From Candidatus Abyssobacteria bacterium SURF_5 (lineage in GTDB: Bacteria > Abyssobacteria > SURF-5), in assembly GCA_003598085.1 (NCBI GenBank), contig QZKU01000008.1, positions 1-12,993 on the forward strand: a stretch of 12,993 nt of DNA, in the 5' to 3' direction. Positions 2,942 to 11,669 of the stretch are shown here, in pieces (positions within the stretch are counted from its first letter, which is position 1; every line of letters begins with the position of its first letter). A program made the translations under genes and the position numbers. The notes beneath the pieces are model-generated. The model was not told where the DNA came from and did no database searches. It worked only from the letters and a program-made list of their open reading frames with translations.

Positions 2942-4096
2942 ATGGGCACTCCGAAGAACAAGGTGCTCCGGTTCACCCGCATCACAATAGCGAACTGGCG
3001 CAATTTCTCGCGGGTCGAAGTCGAGCTGCAGCGCCGGGTTCTGCTCATAGGGGCGAACGCGCTTGGCAAATCGAATTTCCTCGACGTGTTCCGCTTTCTC
3101 CACGACGTGGTGTCGGTCGGCGGCGGTTTTCAGGAGGCGGTTCGCAGGCGGCGTGGAATTGCAAGCCTGCGCTCTCTGTCAGCGCAGCGCCCATCCGATA
3201 TCATGATCAAGGCTCACATAGGAACCGGAGACGAGCCCTCGCTGTGGGAATACGATTTGAGTCTGAATCAGGATAGGACGCGGGGGCCGATCGTCAGACA
3301 GGAAAAAGTTTCGAGGAACGGAAAGAATATCCTTATCCGTCCGAACCAGAAGGACAGGAGCGATCCGCAACGGCTGACGCAGACGTATCTCGAACAGGTT
3401 CATGCGAATGAACCGTTTCGCGAGGTGGCCGATTTCTTCGCCTCGATCCATTACCTTCACATCGTTCCGCAGCTGATGCGCGAGCCCGAGCGCATATCCG
3501 GCCGCGAAGAATCGCTCGGGAGCGATTTTCTCGAGCAGATAGCGCGAGTTCCCAAAAGCATACGCGACGCGCGTCTCCGGAAGATCGTGGATGCGATGCA
3601 TGTCGCCGTCCCTCAGCTCAAACAACTCGAGCTGTGGCGGGATGAGCAGGGCAGGCCGCACCTGCGCGGCAGGTACGAGCATTGGCGCTCGCAGGCGGCG
3701 TGGCAGACCGAGGAGCAGTTTTCAGATGGAACTTTGCGCCTGTTGGGGCTTCTGTGGGCGATGCTGGATGGGACGGGTCCGCTGCTCATGGAGGAGCCCG
3801 AACTTTCGCTGCACCCTGAGGTTGTACGCCTAATCCCGCAGATGTTTGCGCGCGTACAGCGCCGCTACGGCCGGCAGATACTGCTGAGCACTCATTCGAA
3901 TGAGTTGTTACGCGATGAAGGCATCGGGCTGGACGAGGTGCTCCTGTTTCAGCCGGGCGAAGGGACGTCCGTCACCCCCGCGAGCAGCTTCGAGGAAGTC
4001 AAGGCTCTCCTTCAGGGAGGCTCGCCTCTCGCGGATGCCGTCATGCCGCACACCCGCCCGCCGAAGGTCGAACAGTTGATGCTTTTTGGAGACTGA
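2942..4096 (+). CDS. RecF/OLD-like ABC-type ATPase (AAA_21 kind), first gene of a candidate defence pair
   Basis: This 384-residue P-loop ATPase has an N-terminal RecF/SMC-like segment (FTRITIANWRNFSRVEVEL). The Walker A is GANALGKSN at 37-45, with Ala40 where Gly is usual. An ABC-type signature FSDGTLRLL lies at 260-268, Walker B LLMEEPELSLHP at 281-292 (E284, E285), and the H-loop LSTHSNELL at 315-323. Such proteins are soluble ATPases acting on DNA or as sensors in anti-phage systems. The C-terminus ends EQLMLFGD, resembling the QLxLF peptide that binds the DNA polymerase sliding clamp. GGAGAG 7 bases before the ATG fixes the start. The TOPRIM-like gene begins 9 bases after the stop codon, so the two are almost certainly co-transcribed. 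The AAA family call is firm; a defence role is inferred from architecture and pairing. Confidence 0.88.
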   Translation: MGTPKNKVLRFTRITIANWRNFSRVEVELQRRVLLIGANALGKSNFLDVFRFLHDVVSVGGGFQEAVRRRRGIASLRSLSAQRPSDIMIKAHIGTGDEPSLWEYDLSLNQDRTRGPIVRQEKVSRNGKNILIRPNQKDRSDPQRLTQTYLEQVHANEPFREVADFFASIHYLHIVPQLMREPERISGREESLGSDFLEQIARVPKSIRDARLRKIVDAMHVAVPQLKQLELWRDEQGRPHLRGRYEHWRSQAAWQTEEQFSDGTLRLLGLLWAMLDGTGPLLMEEPELSLHPEVVRLIPQMFARVQRRYGRQILLSTHSNELLRDEGIGLDEVLLFQPGEGTSVTPASSFEEVKALLQGGSPLADAVMPHTRPPKVEQLMLFGD

Positions 4097-4105
4097 GCTG
4101 TACTG

Positions 4106-4714
4106 ATGCCGAAGGCTGTTACAATTTCCGGCGCTGTAGAAGGCCTTATCGATGAAGCCGTGCTGCGACGATTGATTCGCTGGGCGGGCGCCGTGCCCGG
4201 CCCGATCTATGGCAAGCACGGAAAATCATTTCTTCGAAAACAGATGGACGCTTACAACCTCGCTGCTTGCAGCGCTCCCTGGTTAGTTCTCGTTGACCTC
4301 GATCACGATGCGGATTGCGCGCCCACTCTTTTGGACGTGTGGCTGCCTGAGCCCGCTCCGCATATGTGTTTCCGGGTGGTTGTGAGGGAGATCGAGGCGT
4401 GGCTTCTCGCCGACCACGAGCGCCTGGCCCACTGCCTCAATGTCCGCTATTCGATGATCCCTCGCGATCCTGAAAGTCTTCATGACCCGAAACACACGCT
4501 GGTGGAGATAGCGAAAAAGTCGCGCCGAAAAGATATCCGCGCAGATATGGTCCCGAGCCTCAGGAGCTACCGAGAGGTCGGGCCGGCGTACAATTCGCGC
4601 ATGATCCAATTCGTTCTTGACGAGTTGAGCGGCTGGCGCCCCGAGGCGGCGGCCCAATCGTCCGAGAGCCTGATGCGCTGCCTGCACCACCTCGAACGCA
4701 TGGCGATCAGATGA
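4106..4714 (+). CDS. TOPRIM-like protein (DUF4276 kind), second gene of a candidate defence pair
   Basis: This 202-residue protein has the two hallmarks of a TOPRIM fold: an N-terminal acidic motif AVEGLIDEAVLRRL (E12, with D16 and E17) and a strand ending in VDLDHDAD (D64, D66, D68, D70). These would bind metal in a nuclease or nucleotidyl-transfer centre. REIEAWLLAD (94-103) resembles the conserved EIEAW-LAD block I associate with DUF4276 proteins. The C-terminal half is basic (KKSRRKDIR) and has no other motif. There is no membrane segment. Translation starts at ATG 4106, 9 bases after the ATPase stop codon, with only a weak ribosome-binding site, suggesting translational coupling. ATPase + TOPRIM pairs include PARIS (AriA/AriB) and Gabija-like systems. 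This one appears distinct because its TOPRIM partner is not DUF4435 by motif, though that needs a profile search. Confidence 0.8.
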   Translation: MPKAVTISGAVEGLIDEAVLRRLIRWAGAVPGPIYGKHGKSFLRKQMDAYNLAACSAPWLVLVDLDHDADCAPTLLDVWLPEPAPHMCFRVVVREIEAWLLADHERLAHCLNVRYSMIPRDPESLHDPKHTLVEIAKKSRRKDIRADMVPSLRSYREVGPAYNSRMIQFVLDELSGWRPEAAAQSSESLMRCLHHLERMAIR

Positions 4715-4806: not shown

Positions 4807-6534
4807 ATGATGCAAGAGAATCCTTCGATGGACGCTCACCCGTGGTTTAAATTCTACGACAAGCACGTCCCCAAATCGCTCGATTATCCGAGGATGACGA
4901 TCTATCAGATGCTGGAAGACGCGCGTCGCAAGTTTCCCGCGAATACCGCCACGATTTTCTACGGCGCCAGGCACACATACTCCGAACTGGGCGCCCGCGT
5001 CGATGCATTTGCCGCCGCGCTCAAGAATCTGGGAATCTCACAGGGGGACCGGGTTGCTCTGATGCTTCCGACGTCTCCGCAGTTTGTCATCGGCTACTTC
5101 GCCATCCTGAAACTCGGGGCGATTGTAGTTCCAACGAATCCGCTGTACGTCGAGCGTGAACTCGAGCATCAATTCAACGATTCGGGCGCCAAGGCGGTTG
5201 TGTGCCTCGACCTCATGTTTGGTCGCATTAAGAACATCTGGAAGAAGACCAAACTGCAGTACGTGATCATCACGAGCATGGCGGAGGAGATGCCGATGAT
5301 CGCCAAGGTCGTCTTCAAGTGGAGGCTGCGGAAGCAAGGCGTCAAGTCGCAGGTCGAAAATCTGCCGGGCGTGTTGTGGTTCAAGGATTTGCTGAAGACT
5401 CCGCCAGACAATATTACAGACGCCGCCTCTCACGACGATATCGCCATGCTGCAATATACGGGCGGAACGACAGGCATCTCGAAAGGCGTGATGCTCACCC
5501 ATCGAAACATGGTGGCCAACGTGGACCAAAACGTTATCTGGCGCGCTCCCGATATCGAGCCCGGCAAGAACACGGTGTTGTGCGTGCTTCCCTTCTTTCA
5601 CGTATACGGGTTGTGCAGCATGCTGTGCTACATTCGCGTGGGCGCCGCCATGGTTTTGTTGCCGAGATTCGACGTGAATGAGACGTTAAAAGCGTTGCAC
5701 AAGTACAGGCCTCAGCTATTTGCAGCCGTTCCTACTATCCTGGTCGCGATCAATTCCCACCCGCGCCTGAGCGAGTACAAGCTTGATTCGATCAAGAGCG
5801 TCAATTGCGGGGCGGCGCCGCTGCCGGTCGAAGTGATGGAGCAATTCGAGAAGAAAACGGGCGCAGTGATCCTCGAGGGATTCGGCATGAGCGAGACTTC
5901 GCCGGGCCTGCATTCCAATCCCTATCTCGGTCCTCACAAGGCGGGGAGCGTCGGCATCCCGATGTCGGACACCGACGCCAAAATAATGGACCTTGAAACC
6001 GGCGAGCGCGAGCTTCCCATGGGCGAAGCAGGCGAACTTGTCGTGCGCGGTCCGCAGGTGATGAAAGGATACTGGAACCGGCCGGACGAAACAGCCGCAT
6101 GCCTGCGAGACGGCTGGCTGTATACGGGCGACATAGCACGAATGGATTCCGACGGTTATTTCTATATTGTTGACCGGAAGAAGGACATGATAATCGCTGG
6201 CGGCTTCAATATCTACCCGCGCGAGATCGACGAGGTGCTGTTTGAGCATCCCAAGGTGAAGGAAGCCGTATCCGTCGGCATACCCGACCAGTATCGCGGC
6301 GAAACGGTCAAGGCTTATATTGTGCTGAAGGACGGCGAGACCGCGACGGAAAAGGAGATAATCGATTTCTGCCGCGAACGCCTAACCCGCTACAAGGTGC
6401 CGACGCAGGTGGAATTTCGGCCCGAGCTTCCGAAGACGCTGGTTGGGAAAATATTGAGGAGAGCCTTGCGCGAAGAGGAAATGAAGAAAAGCGCTGCCGA
6501 AGAAGCGAAGTCGCCATCCGAACGCATGCAGTGA
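4807..6534 (+). CDS. fadD: long-chain acyl-CoA ligase, FadD type (AMP-forming)
   Basis: The enzyme activates a fatty acid with ATP and CoA, through an acyl-adenylate, on the cytoplasmic side of the membrane. It is a full-length ANL-superfamily member (575 residues from this start). It has the P-loop YTGGTTGISKG (217-227), GFGMSETSP (358-366), YTGD (439-442), the hinge DRKKDMI (456-462) followed by GGFNIYPREIDEVL, and the catalytic Lys of LVGKILRR (K548). The N-terminus (HPWFKFYDKHVPKSLDYP) resembles bacterial FadD/LcfA proteins. ATG 4807 follows GGAAA by 6 bases. ATG 4810 and 4828 (AAGAGAA 7 bases upstream) are also possible. An ATG at 4711 that overlaps the preceding stop is less likely, because a promoter lies inside that extension. 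The chain-length preference cannot be read from sequence. A CoA-binding protein gene follows 36 bases downstream. Confidence 0.92.
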   Translation: MMQENPSMDAHPWFKFYDKHVPKSLDYPRMTIYQMLEDARRKFPANTATIFYGARHTYSELGARVDAFAAALKNLGISQGDRVALMLPTSPQFVIGYFAILKLGAIVVPTNPLYVERELEHQFNDSGAKAVVCLDLMFGRIKNIWKKTKLQYVIITSMAEEMPMIAKVVFKWRLRKQGVKSQVENLPGVLWFKDLLKTPPDNITDAASHDDIAMLQYTGGTTGISKGVMLTHRNMVANVDQNVIWRAPDIEPGKNTVLCVLPFFHVYGLCSMLCYIRVGAAMVLLPRFDVNETLKALHKYRPQLFAAVPTILVAINSHPRLSEYKLDSIKSVNCGAAPLPVEVMEQFEKKTGAVILEGFGMSETSPGLHSNPYLGPHKAGSVGIPMSDTDAKIMDLETGERELPMGEAGELVVRGPQVMKGYWNRPDETAACLRDGWLYTGDIARMDSDGYFYIVDRKKDMIIAGGFNIYPREIDEVLFEHPKVKEAVSVGIPDQYRGETVKAYIVLKDGETATEKEIIDFCRERLTRYKVPTQVEFRPELPKTLVGKILRRALREEEMKKSAAEEAKSPSERMQ

Positions 6535-6570
6535 GCTCTCTCTCGTATTCACAAGCGAAGGGGGAAGAAG

Positions 6571-7008
6571 ATGCCATCGAATTATGAAAACTTCTGGACC
6601 GCGACGAGCTATGCGATAATCGGGCACTCGGCGAAGATGGACTTCCCGAAAATCACTTACAATGCGCTCAAGAAATCGGGCAAGAAGGTTTTTCCGATTG
6701 ATCCCGGCGCGCCCTCCATCGATGGCGACAACGCGTATTCTGATCTTGCATCGCTGCCGGAACGAGTCGAGGCAGTCGTTATTGAAGTGCCGAAGGAAGA
6801 AACAAGGAATTGGGTTGCGCAGGCGGCGGATGCGGGGATCAGGAACGTGTGGATTCACATGGACTGTGAAACGCCTGAGGCGCTGGAGTTAGCCCGCGAG
6901 AAAGGTTTGAACGTGTGCTATGGGTCATGCGCCGTGATGTACGTGATCCCCGGCCTTTCCTTCCATTCCATCCACAAATGGATCAATAAATTGTTGGGCA
7001 AGTACTAG
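6571..7008 (+). CDS. small CoA-binding domain protein (YccU/CoA_binding_2 type)
   Basis: This 145-residue single-domain protein has the Rossmann-like CoA-binding fold. It opens with SYAIIGHSAKMDFP (about 13-26), then a helix and KKVFPIDPG (38-46), SLPERVEAVVIEVP (61-74) and IRNVWIHMDCETPEAL (90-105), and ends with the Cys-containing YGSCAVMYVIPG (117-128). This order and length match YccU-like proteins and the CoA-binding part of succinyl-CoA synthetase alpha chains. The canonical active-site His for phosphorylation is not expected in such short forms. AGGGGGAAG a few bases upstream of the ATG supports the start. The gene follows the acyl-CoA ligase by 36 bases on the same strand, so co-transcription is likely and a role in sensing or handling CoA thioesters is plausible but unproven. 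The C-terminus SIHKWINKLLGKY is unlike E. coli YccU. Confidence 0.82.
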   Translation: MPSNYENFWTATSYAIIGHSAKMDFPKITYNALKKSGKKVFPIDPGAPSIDGDNAYSDLASLPERVEAVVIEVPKEETRNWVAQAADAGIRNVWIHMDCETPEALELAREKGLNVCYGSCAVMYVIPGLSFHSIHKWINKLLGKY

Positions 7009-10082: not shown

Positions 10083-10144
10083 GAGGCACGACAATGCCGG
10101 GCATTATTCGGGTTCATTCGTCCGGCTGCCAGGGAGGATTCATG

Positions 10145-10705
10145 ATGCGGCAATGGAAAACGCATGCGCGGAGGGTGGTTCTAGACGAAGGGAGATATCT
10201 GAGGGTAGAGCATCACGACATCGAGCTGCCGGGCGGGCGGATGCTTCATGACTGGCCGTGGCTGGTCACGCCTGATTACGTGAACATCCTTGCAGTTACC
10301 GATCAGGGCAGATTCCTCTGTTTTCGGCAGACGAAGTACGCAGTCGAGGGACTGTGTCTGGCGCCGCCGGGCGGGTACATCGATGCAGGCGAGGATCCAC
10401 TGATGGCGGCGCGCCGGGAACTTCTTGAGGAGACTGGCTATCAGGCTTCGGAATGGGTGGCGCTCGGACATCTTCCGGTAGACGGAAACAGGGGAGCAGG
10501 CACAGCTCACTTGTTTCTCGCGCTGCAAGCGCAAGAGATTGCTGAGATAGACTCAGACGATCTTGAAGAGCAGAAGCTGCTGCTATTGACTCGAAATGAA
10601 GTTGAGAACGCGCTTGCCGCAGGCGAATTCAAGGTGCTTGCCTGGGCGACCGTTGTTGCGTTGGGTCTGCTGCATCTGGAGGGGCGGGTGAAATTTCATG
10701 CCTGA
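10145..10705 (+). CDS. Nudix hydrolase, ADP-ribose pyrophosphatase-like
   Basis: This 186-residue protein carries a complete Nudix box at 77-99, following G-x5-E-x7-RE-x2-EE-x-G: G77, E83, R91-E92, E95-E96 and G98. These Glu residues bind Mg2+ for pyrophosphate-bond hydrolysis. The preceding part (DWPWLVTPDYVNILAVT, then FRQTKYAVEGLCLAPPGG) resembles ADP-ribose or nucleotide-sugar pyrophosphatases more than MutT. The substrate remains uncertain. GGGAGGA lies 7 bases before ATG 10145 and 4 before ATG 10142, so either could be used. An in-frame ATG at 10094 lacks a ribosome-binding site. The end overlaps the next gene by 8 bases, implying translational coupling with the PLP enzyme. The protein is cytoplasmic and soluble. 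Confidence 0.88.
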   Translation: MRQWKTHARRVVLDEGRYLRVEHHDIELPGGRMLHDWPWLVTPDYVNILAVTDQGRFLCFRQTKYAVEGLCLAPPGGYIDAGEDPLMAARRELLEETGYQASEWVALGHLPVDGNRGAGTAHLFLALQAQEIAEIDSDDLEEQKLLLLTRNEVENALAAGEFKVLAWATVVALGLLHLEGRVKFHA

Positions 10706-11669
10706 GCCCACCATTGATGATATCCGCGCCGCCGCTCAGCGGATTCAGAATGTTATCCACCGGACGCCGGTACTCACGTGCGCTACGCTCGACCGCCTGT
10801 GCGATGCGAACATCTACTTCAAGTGCGAGAATTTTCAGAAGACGGGCTCGTTCAAAATACGGGGAGCGGCCAATGCGGTTTTCTCCTTATCTCCCGAGGA
10901 TGCTTCCAGGGGCGTGGCCACTCATTCCTCCGGGAATCATGCGGCCGCGGTGGCGCTTGCCGCTCGATTACGCGGCATAACGGCGTACGTGGTGATGCCG
11001 CGCACGGCGCCCCGGATAAAGAAGAACGCGGTCGCCGGTTATGGCGCCGAGATTGTTTTTTGCGAGCCGACGCTGGCGGCACGACAGGAGGGGCTGGCGG
11101 AGATCGTCAGGCAGACCGGCGCAGTAGAGGTTCATCCTTACAACAATTATGACGTGATGGCGGGGCAGGGGACCTCCGCCCTGGAGCTGTGCGAGGAGGT
11201 GGGGAATCTTGACGCGGTCGTTGCTCCGATCGGCGGCGGCGGACTGTTGAGCGGCACGGCTATTGCTCTCTCCTCAATCTCGCCGGCGACGAAGGTGATA
11301 GGCGCGGAACCCGCAAACGCGGACGATGCTGCGCGTTCGCTGCAGGCCGGAAAGATTCTTCCCGCAGGCGATCCTGTCACAATCGCGGATGGTTTGAGAA
11401 CCGGCGTCGGCACCCTCACGTTTCCGGTAATCAAGCAGTTGGTGAGCGACATCATCACGGCGGAGGAGGAATTGATTGCCGAAGCTCTTCTGCTGGTGTG
11501 GGAGCGGATGAAGGTGGTCATTGAGCCGTCGTCGGCGGTTCCGCTTGCGGTCCTTCTCAGGAGGCGCGGCGCGATACCGGGAAGAAGAATAGGAATTATC
11601 CTCTCGGGCGGCAATGTGGATATCGGGGCTGTGGCGCGGTCGCTGCCGGCGAATGTTTCAAAGAAGTGA
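10698..11669 (+). CDS. PLP-dependent serine racemase / threonine dehydratase-type enzyme
   Basis: This 323-residue fold-type II PLP enzyme has the Schiff-base Lys in GSFKIRGA (K53), SSGNHAAA (77-84), and the phosphate-binding Gly loop IGGGGLLSG (178-186). LSGGN lies at 302-306, with S303 as the pyridine-nitrogen partner. It lacks the C-terminal ACT regulatory domain of biosynthetic IlvA, so it is like the catabolic or racemase forms. EPANADD (E204, A208, D210) reproduces the divalent-metal site of mammalian serine racemase, and S78 aligns with its re-face base. It may therefore racemise or dehydrate serine, or dehydrate threonine. Sequence alone does not choose. The gene starts at ATG 10698 inside the end of the Nudix gene, with GGGGCGGG upstream. 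Family assignment is firm; activity is uncertain. Confidence 0.9.
   Translation: MPEPTIDDIRAAAQRIQNVIHRTPVLTCATLDRLCDANIYFKCENFQKTGSFKIRGAANAVFSLSPEDASRGVATHSSGNHAAAVALAARLRGITAYVVMPRTAPRIKKNAVAGYGAEIVFCEPTLAARQEGLAEIVRQTGAVEVHPYNNYDVMAGQGTSALELCEEVGNLDAVVAPIGGGGLLSGTAIALSSISPATKVIGAEPANADDAARSLQAGKILPAGDPVTIADGLRTGVGTLTFPVIKQLVSDIITAEEELIAEALLLVWERMKVVIEPSSAVPLAVLLRRRGAIPGRRIGIILSGGNVDIGAVARSLPANVSKK

Follow-up and report, generated by a model that had tools for sequence, protein, structure and literature searches.

A stand-alone copy of the candidate defence system HEC-01, a gene pair for an ABC-type ATPase and a predicted TOPRIM protein, in Candidatus Abyssobacteria bacterium SURF_5

The designation HEC, for Hma-embedded candidate, was reportedly introduced by Payne et al. 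2024 in their guilt-by-embedding study. Passages of another paper describe several HECs as active, and HEC-06 is the only one that these passages name (PMC12988326). For HEC-01, our literature search found no described mechanism; the name was found only as that of a detected system in a paper on Desulfovibrio piger, and searches for DUF4276, and for HEC-01 together with PADLOC, found no papers. Among the described systems that combine an ABC-type ATPase with a TOPRIM protein, PARIS relies on AriA, which activates AriB, a cutter of host tRNAs (PMC12409363). The OLD nuclease of Burkholderia carries out two-metal cleavage with E400, E404, D455, D457, T506, E508 and K562 (PMC6755086). In passages of a recent BREX survey, TOPRIM-linked OLD-ABC dyads in BREX are presented as backup suicidal effectors (PMC12839542).

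Here we report the analysis of a two-gene ATPase–TOPRIM unit in a stretch of 12,993 nucleotides (hereafter, the window), which is the whole of a 13 kb contig belonging to a 5.1 Mb draft genome. A preliminary description, made from the sequence of the window, had taken this unit for a candidate anti-phage system with an anatomy like that of PARIS and OLD and a TOPRIM class other than DUF4435, and had supposed that it was separate from the systems already recognised.

Identity and predicted active sites of the gene pair

The unit consists of two open reading frames on the forward strand, 2942–4096 (384 aa, protein A) and 4106–4714 (202 aa, protein B), with the expected 9 bases between the stop of the first and the start of the second. 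Comparison with PADLOC models revealed HEC-01A (PDLC04180) as the best match of protein A (E=4e-151, 501.5 bits; residues 9–381 against profile positions 1–380 of 382) and HEC-01B (PDLC04194) as the best match of protein B (E=4.5e-58, 194.4 bits; residues 3–200 against profile positions 3–198 of 204). All 13 PADLOC matches of protein B were to HEC-01 models. Protein A also matched Pfam AAA_21 (E=3e-35) and the PADLOC model of AriA (E=3.6e-34), with the HEC-01A score far above that of AriA. For protein B, no match to a DUF4435 or AriB profile was present in Pfam or PADLOC up to E=1. The DUF4276-like character ascribed to protein B was borne out only through its family: protein B itself scored 21.4 bits against DUF4276 (PF14103), below the Pfam gathering threshold of 30.2 bits, whereas an alignable distant relative (L020) exceeded the threshold with 49.7 bits. 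Judged by these profile matches, the pair is a copy of the already catalogued candidate defence system HEC-01 and not a new system, so the idea of a separate, unrecognised system had to be given up. Together with predicted models, the matches identify protein A as a HEC-01A-type ABC ATPase of the OLD/RecF/SMC-head class, presumably the sensor or regulator, and protein B as a HEC-01B-type, DUF4276-related TOPRIM protein, presumably the nuclease effector.

Analysis of 69 homologues located the ATPase motifs where the preliminary description had placed them. The Walker A motif GANALGKSN (residues 37–45; 3050–3076, plus strand, as are all motifs given below) has invariant G37, N39, A40, G42, K43, S44 and N45; in the Walker B motif LLMEEPE (residues 281–287; 3782–3802), E284, E285 and P286 are invariant, and the H-loop histidine H318, within STHS (3893–3895), is conserved in 99%. 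An ABC signature-like SDG (residues 261–263; 3722–3730) showed similar conservation (S261 and G263 100%, D262 99%). The predicted model of protein A (pLDDT 82) matched SMC, Rad50 and PtuA heads with Z of about 19–22.

The AlphaFold2 model of protein B (pLDDT 90.9, pTM 0.89) gave as its top VIA-align row the TOPRIM domain of OLD (6nk8; Z 8.9, 161 residues, 3.8 Å), followed by the hypothetical protein PH0156 (Z 8.4), PARIS AriB (8ux9; Z 8.0, 162 residues) and more OLD structures. The top chains (OLD, PH0156 and AriB) reached Z 7.8–8.9 over 154–168 residues, and unrelated folds about 6–7. Plain Foldseek with the same model yielded no match below E=0.001, and phmmer of protein B against PDB sequences yielded no useful match. 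The predicted structure supported a TOPRIM fold for the second gene and, with OLD and AriB as the best structural matches, agreed with the anatomy proposed in the preliminary description. Since the VIA-align margin was modest and plain Foldseek was non-significant, the conserved residues of protein B carry weight.

Among the 69 homologues, the invariant residues of protein B are E12, D64, C71, R90, V93, E97, W99, K129, G159, Y162, W177, A182 and S188, and E17 (96%) and E95 (99%) are nearly so. The proposed TOPRIM glutamate E12 (4139–4141) accordingly belongs to the invariant set; the acidic cluster D64/D66/D68/D70, in contrast, shrank to the DxD motif D64-L65-D66 (4295–4303; D64 100%, D66 90% D and 10% N), because D68 (45%) and D70 (35%) are not conserved. 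E12, E17 (or D16), D64, D66, E95, E97 and K129 stand in the same order as the OLD catalytic set. Within this series, E95-x-E97 (4388–4396) retains the two-residue spacing of OLD T506-x-E508 (metal B), of which it is the proposed counterpart by order and spacing, and K129 (4490–4492) is proposed, from order only, to match the OLD catalytic lysine K562. We infer that these residues correspond to the OLD two-metal site, a correspondence drawn from order and spacing and not from residue-level superposition.

The predicted fold does not discriminate between a DNA and an RNA substrate, since the tRNA-cutting AriB matched about as well as OLD. This bears on an OLD- or Gabija-like alternative, in which the ATPase–TOPRIM complex would itself cut or nick the DNA of the invader and the ATPase would control access to that DNA, instead of the complex acting as a release-type suicide effector on host RNA. 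The best match of protein B, 6nk8, is the TOPRIM domain of an OLD protein that nicks and degrades DNA (PMC6755086), and the ATPase resembles the DNA-handling heads of SMC and Rad50; however, AriB matches about equally (8ux9, Z 8.0), and a division over two genes is what PARIS shows. We regard direct attack on invading DNA as rather unlikely.

Pairing, distribution and genomic settings of the relatives

An alignment scan of genome contigs revealed 372 relatives, of which 80 were kept; a single-sequence scan of genome contigs gave no match. Any relative of gene B was present in 55 of the 386 sampled genomes, and strong HEC-01 relatives spanned many bacterial phyla and extended to methanogenic archaea. 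In 77 of the 80 loci, gene A immediately preceded gene B; of the three exceptions, two sit where a contig ends and one (L096) is a partial copy. In the 65 well-read loci, the gap between the genes had a median of -1 base and fell between -14 and +9 in 61, and 22 loci had a four-base overlap of stop and start. Mirror-tree analysis of pairwise distances gave r=0.886 between A and B (shuffled maximum, 0.127), a value that common descent inflates and that therefore indicates shared history rather than contact. Genes A and B form an obligate, coupled and co-evolving pair.

The phylum labels changed 34 times on the tree, against a minimum of 17 and 40 in shuffles. This mixing, which bins and paralogues may likewise produce, fits much horizontal movement. 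Broken copies were found as well: a stop or frame change interrupts gene A in L080 and L083 and gene B in L099. Gene B had no match in phage or plasmid collections and a single one among viral contigs. A putative viral contig of IMG/VR (L154, 6841–8609) carries a HEC-01-like pair with a four-base overlap, in which protein B is 34% identical.

The first large recurring families among the neighbours of the pair were Hma genes, and some 12 relatives are situated within Hma operons or next to them. In nine loci (L058, L064, L068, L071, L072, L074, L082, L090 and L099), the pair follows HmaA and precedes HmaB, and it stands beside Hma genes in three more (L065, L066 and L092). PADLOC called both HmaA and HmaB in L058 and L071, and HmaA in L064; the other Hma assignments were made by similarity to these, with weaker HmaA scores in L068, L082 and L099. 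Type III restriction loci form a second setting for relatives of the same subfamily: in L110 and L123 the pair separates Mod from Res, and in L075 it directly precedes the Mod-Res genes. In the BREX operon brxB-brxC-pglX-pglZ of L020 (4732–10372), a distant HEC-01 pair is placed between an N-terminal (851 aa) and a C-terminal (328 aa) part of pglX. Two Hma loci, L074 (8776–15676) and L092 (6438–10606), each hold two different HEC-01 pairs, one of them divergent, and in L092 the two pairs stand in tandem. In L058, a SoFic-like gene (5595–6644) separates HmaA from the HEC-01 pair, and two modules thus appear nested in this Hma operon. A survey of neighbours counted 31 PADLOC families near the pair and 64 about 7 kb away; families and not proteins were counted, and PADLOC families were no commoner next to the pair than at this distance, where the far set lies within the same loci and is not an independent control.

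Because relatives are placed within larger defence operons in many phyla, the pair in the window is probably genuine immunity. The Hma, type III restriction and BREX settings, together with the PADLOC assignment to HEC-01, uphold the original view of the unit as a candidate anti-phage system, and conserved housekeeping settings are not the only places where homologues occur. A host DNA-repair or chromosome-maintenance pair, composed of a RecF/SbcC-like ATPase and a TOPRIM nuclease, would suit the SMC and Rad50 heads, to which the ATPase comes closest in fold, and Cran1, an archaeal OLD-family ATPase, reportedly has a cell-cycle role (PMC12796447). Nevertheless, gene B relatives are patchily present (55 of 386 genomes), phyla intermingle on the tree, copies are broken in L080, L083 and L099, the relatives have no conserved housekeeping neighbourhood, and placement within defence operons is repeated, all of which makes such a role highly improbable.

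Surroundings of the copy in the window

Upstream of the pair, the window contains a gene for a DUF4149-like membrane protein, and downstream one for an AMP-binding ligase. Apart from the pair, no defence gene was recognised on the 13 kb contig, where the neighbours are metabolic; this copy stands alone, outside any defence operon. Three genomes of one family, that of the window and two others (G001 and G002), have the pair in different gene settings: its neighbours are an MFS transporter in G001 and an EamA transporter and a PPIase in G002, and the genes that flank it in the window are found elsewhere in both genomes, without the pair. In the window (10139–11669) and in G002 (L013, 5937–7411), a block of NUDIX and threonine dehydratase-like genes is no more than about 6 kb away from the pair. 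The relative orientation of this block is opposite between the window and G002, which represent two related genera. Some common ancestral neighbourhood of these two copies is possible.

The stand-alone position beside metabolic genes bears on a further alternative, an anti-plasmid or addiction module of the toxin–antitoxin kind, in which the ATPase would restrain a toxic nuclease and the pair would persist by promoting its own spread and not by giving phage immunity. A coupled two-gene operon with a nuclease and a patchy spread over phyla would be in keeping with it, but placement in Hma, type III restriction and BREX loci indicates work against invaders, and gene B was not found in the plasmid collection; we consider this module improbable.

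A repeat-rich left border and a new promoter right after the pair had been read as signs of an inserted cassette. Two short repeats are indeed present in the left intergenic region, at 2777–2804 and 2839–2898 (neither assigned to a strand), but both are dispersed genome-wide, the first with many copies elsewhere in the genome and the second with copies at 80–87% identity on several other contigs. We rejected them as cassette borders because of these copies and because the gene pair is not bounded by local repeats, direct or inverted. In all, the window segments 98–158, 2777–2804 and 2839–2898 represent two short genome-dispersed repeat families with 24 matches. The promoter did not hold up either: a consensus scan found one promoter-like site, compared with 0.7 expected by chance, and this site is not at the 3' border of the pair.

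Elsewhere in the genome of the window, on a separate contig, there is at least one complete Hma operon. This operon (L159, contig C36, 4658–13152, minus strand) carries, between HmaA and HmaB, an ATPase + DUF3226 pair (PDC-M38A, E=4.8e-85; PDC-M38B, E=1.6e-47) and a 158-aa gene. A second HmaA–HmaB-like locus of the same genome (L160, contig C53, 6376–14320) has, between its HmaA- and HmaB-like genes, genes for an HTH + Peptidase_M78 protein (422 aa) and for a protein of 197 aa that matches PDC-S70 weakly.

Proposed function and comparison with known systems

We favour, as a reasonably probable reading, that the pair in the window is a stand-alone HEC-01 copy that serves as a two-gene immune module, in which an ATPase sensor unleashes a TOPRIM nuclease in the manner of PARIS; by analogy, working like PARIS is the most likely mode of action for HEC-01. 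An ATPase dimer would hold or gate the TOPRIM nuclease until the ATPase detects a sign of infection, which for embedded copies may be that a phage has blocked the restriction-like system of the host. The ATPase would then activate the TOPRIM protein through its putative two-metal active site, nucleic acid would be cut and the infection aborted, as with AriA and AriB. Both the sensing and the release of the nuclease are carried over from PARIS by analogy. Counting against this reading are the metabolic surroundings of the window copy, the survey in which PADLOC families were no commoner beside the pair than farther off, and the near absence of gene B matches from the phage, plasmid and viral collections.

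More tentatively, and on balance doubtfully, HEC-01 may be a general backup device that guards Hma, type III restriction–modification and BREX, with a DUF4276-type TOPRIM protein that kills the cell when a phage disables them and with stand-alone copies that have a trigger of their own. If true, PARIS would have an independent counterpart, a second solution of its type built on another class of nuclease. Residue conservation at the metal site, the constant gene pairing and the presence within three kinds of host defence operon open the mechanism of HEC-01 to direct test. They also suggest that ATPase–TOPRIM dyads split over two genes, of several unrelated TOPRIM classes, are a recurrent type of effector in prokaryotic immunity.

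Compared with HEC-01 as catalogued, the window holds the same gene pair, and both proteins are full-length matches; the difference is in the setting, since HEC-01 relatives of the same subfamily are embedded in Hma operons and the window copy is not. PARIS likewise has two genes, for an ABC-type ATPase and a TOPRIM protein, and the predicted fold of protein B resembles AriB (Z 8.0, 162 residues). However, protein B matches neither the DUF4435 nor the AriB profile, so that membership in PARIS is rejected on the side of the effector, although AAA_21 (E=3e-35) gives protein A an AriA-type ATPase. OLD proteins of class 1 and class 2 (GajA of Gabija) share with the pair the ABC ATPase and TOPRIM, the order of the two-metal residues and the best structural match (6nk8), whereas in the window ATPase and TOPRIM are separate polypeptides. 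Two open reading frames, each with its own stop and start, rule out a single-chain OLD, and Gabija was rejected since no GajB-like helicase lies beside the pair, which is flanked by the DUF4149-like membrane protein and the AMP-binding ligase. PDC-M38, a PADLOC candidate consisting of an AAA ATPase and a DUF3226 protein, resembles HEC-01 in joining an ATPase to a small DxD-containing partner and is Hma-embedded in the same genome (L159), but its partner is of another family (DUF3226, E=9.8e-54) and its ATPase belongs to another clade than that of the HEC-01 pair. The TOPRIM-linked OLD-ABC dyads of BREX neighbourhoods have the same architecture as the HEC-01 pair, a likeness of architecture, as the survey passages in question name neither HEC-01 nor DUF4276 (PMC12839542).
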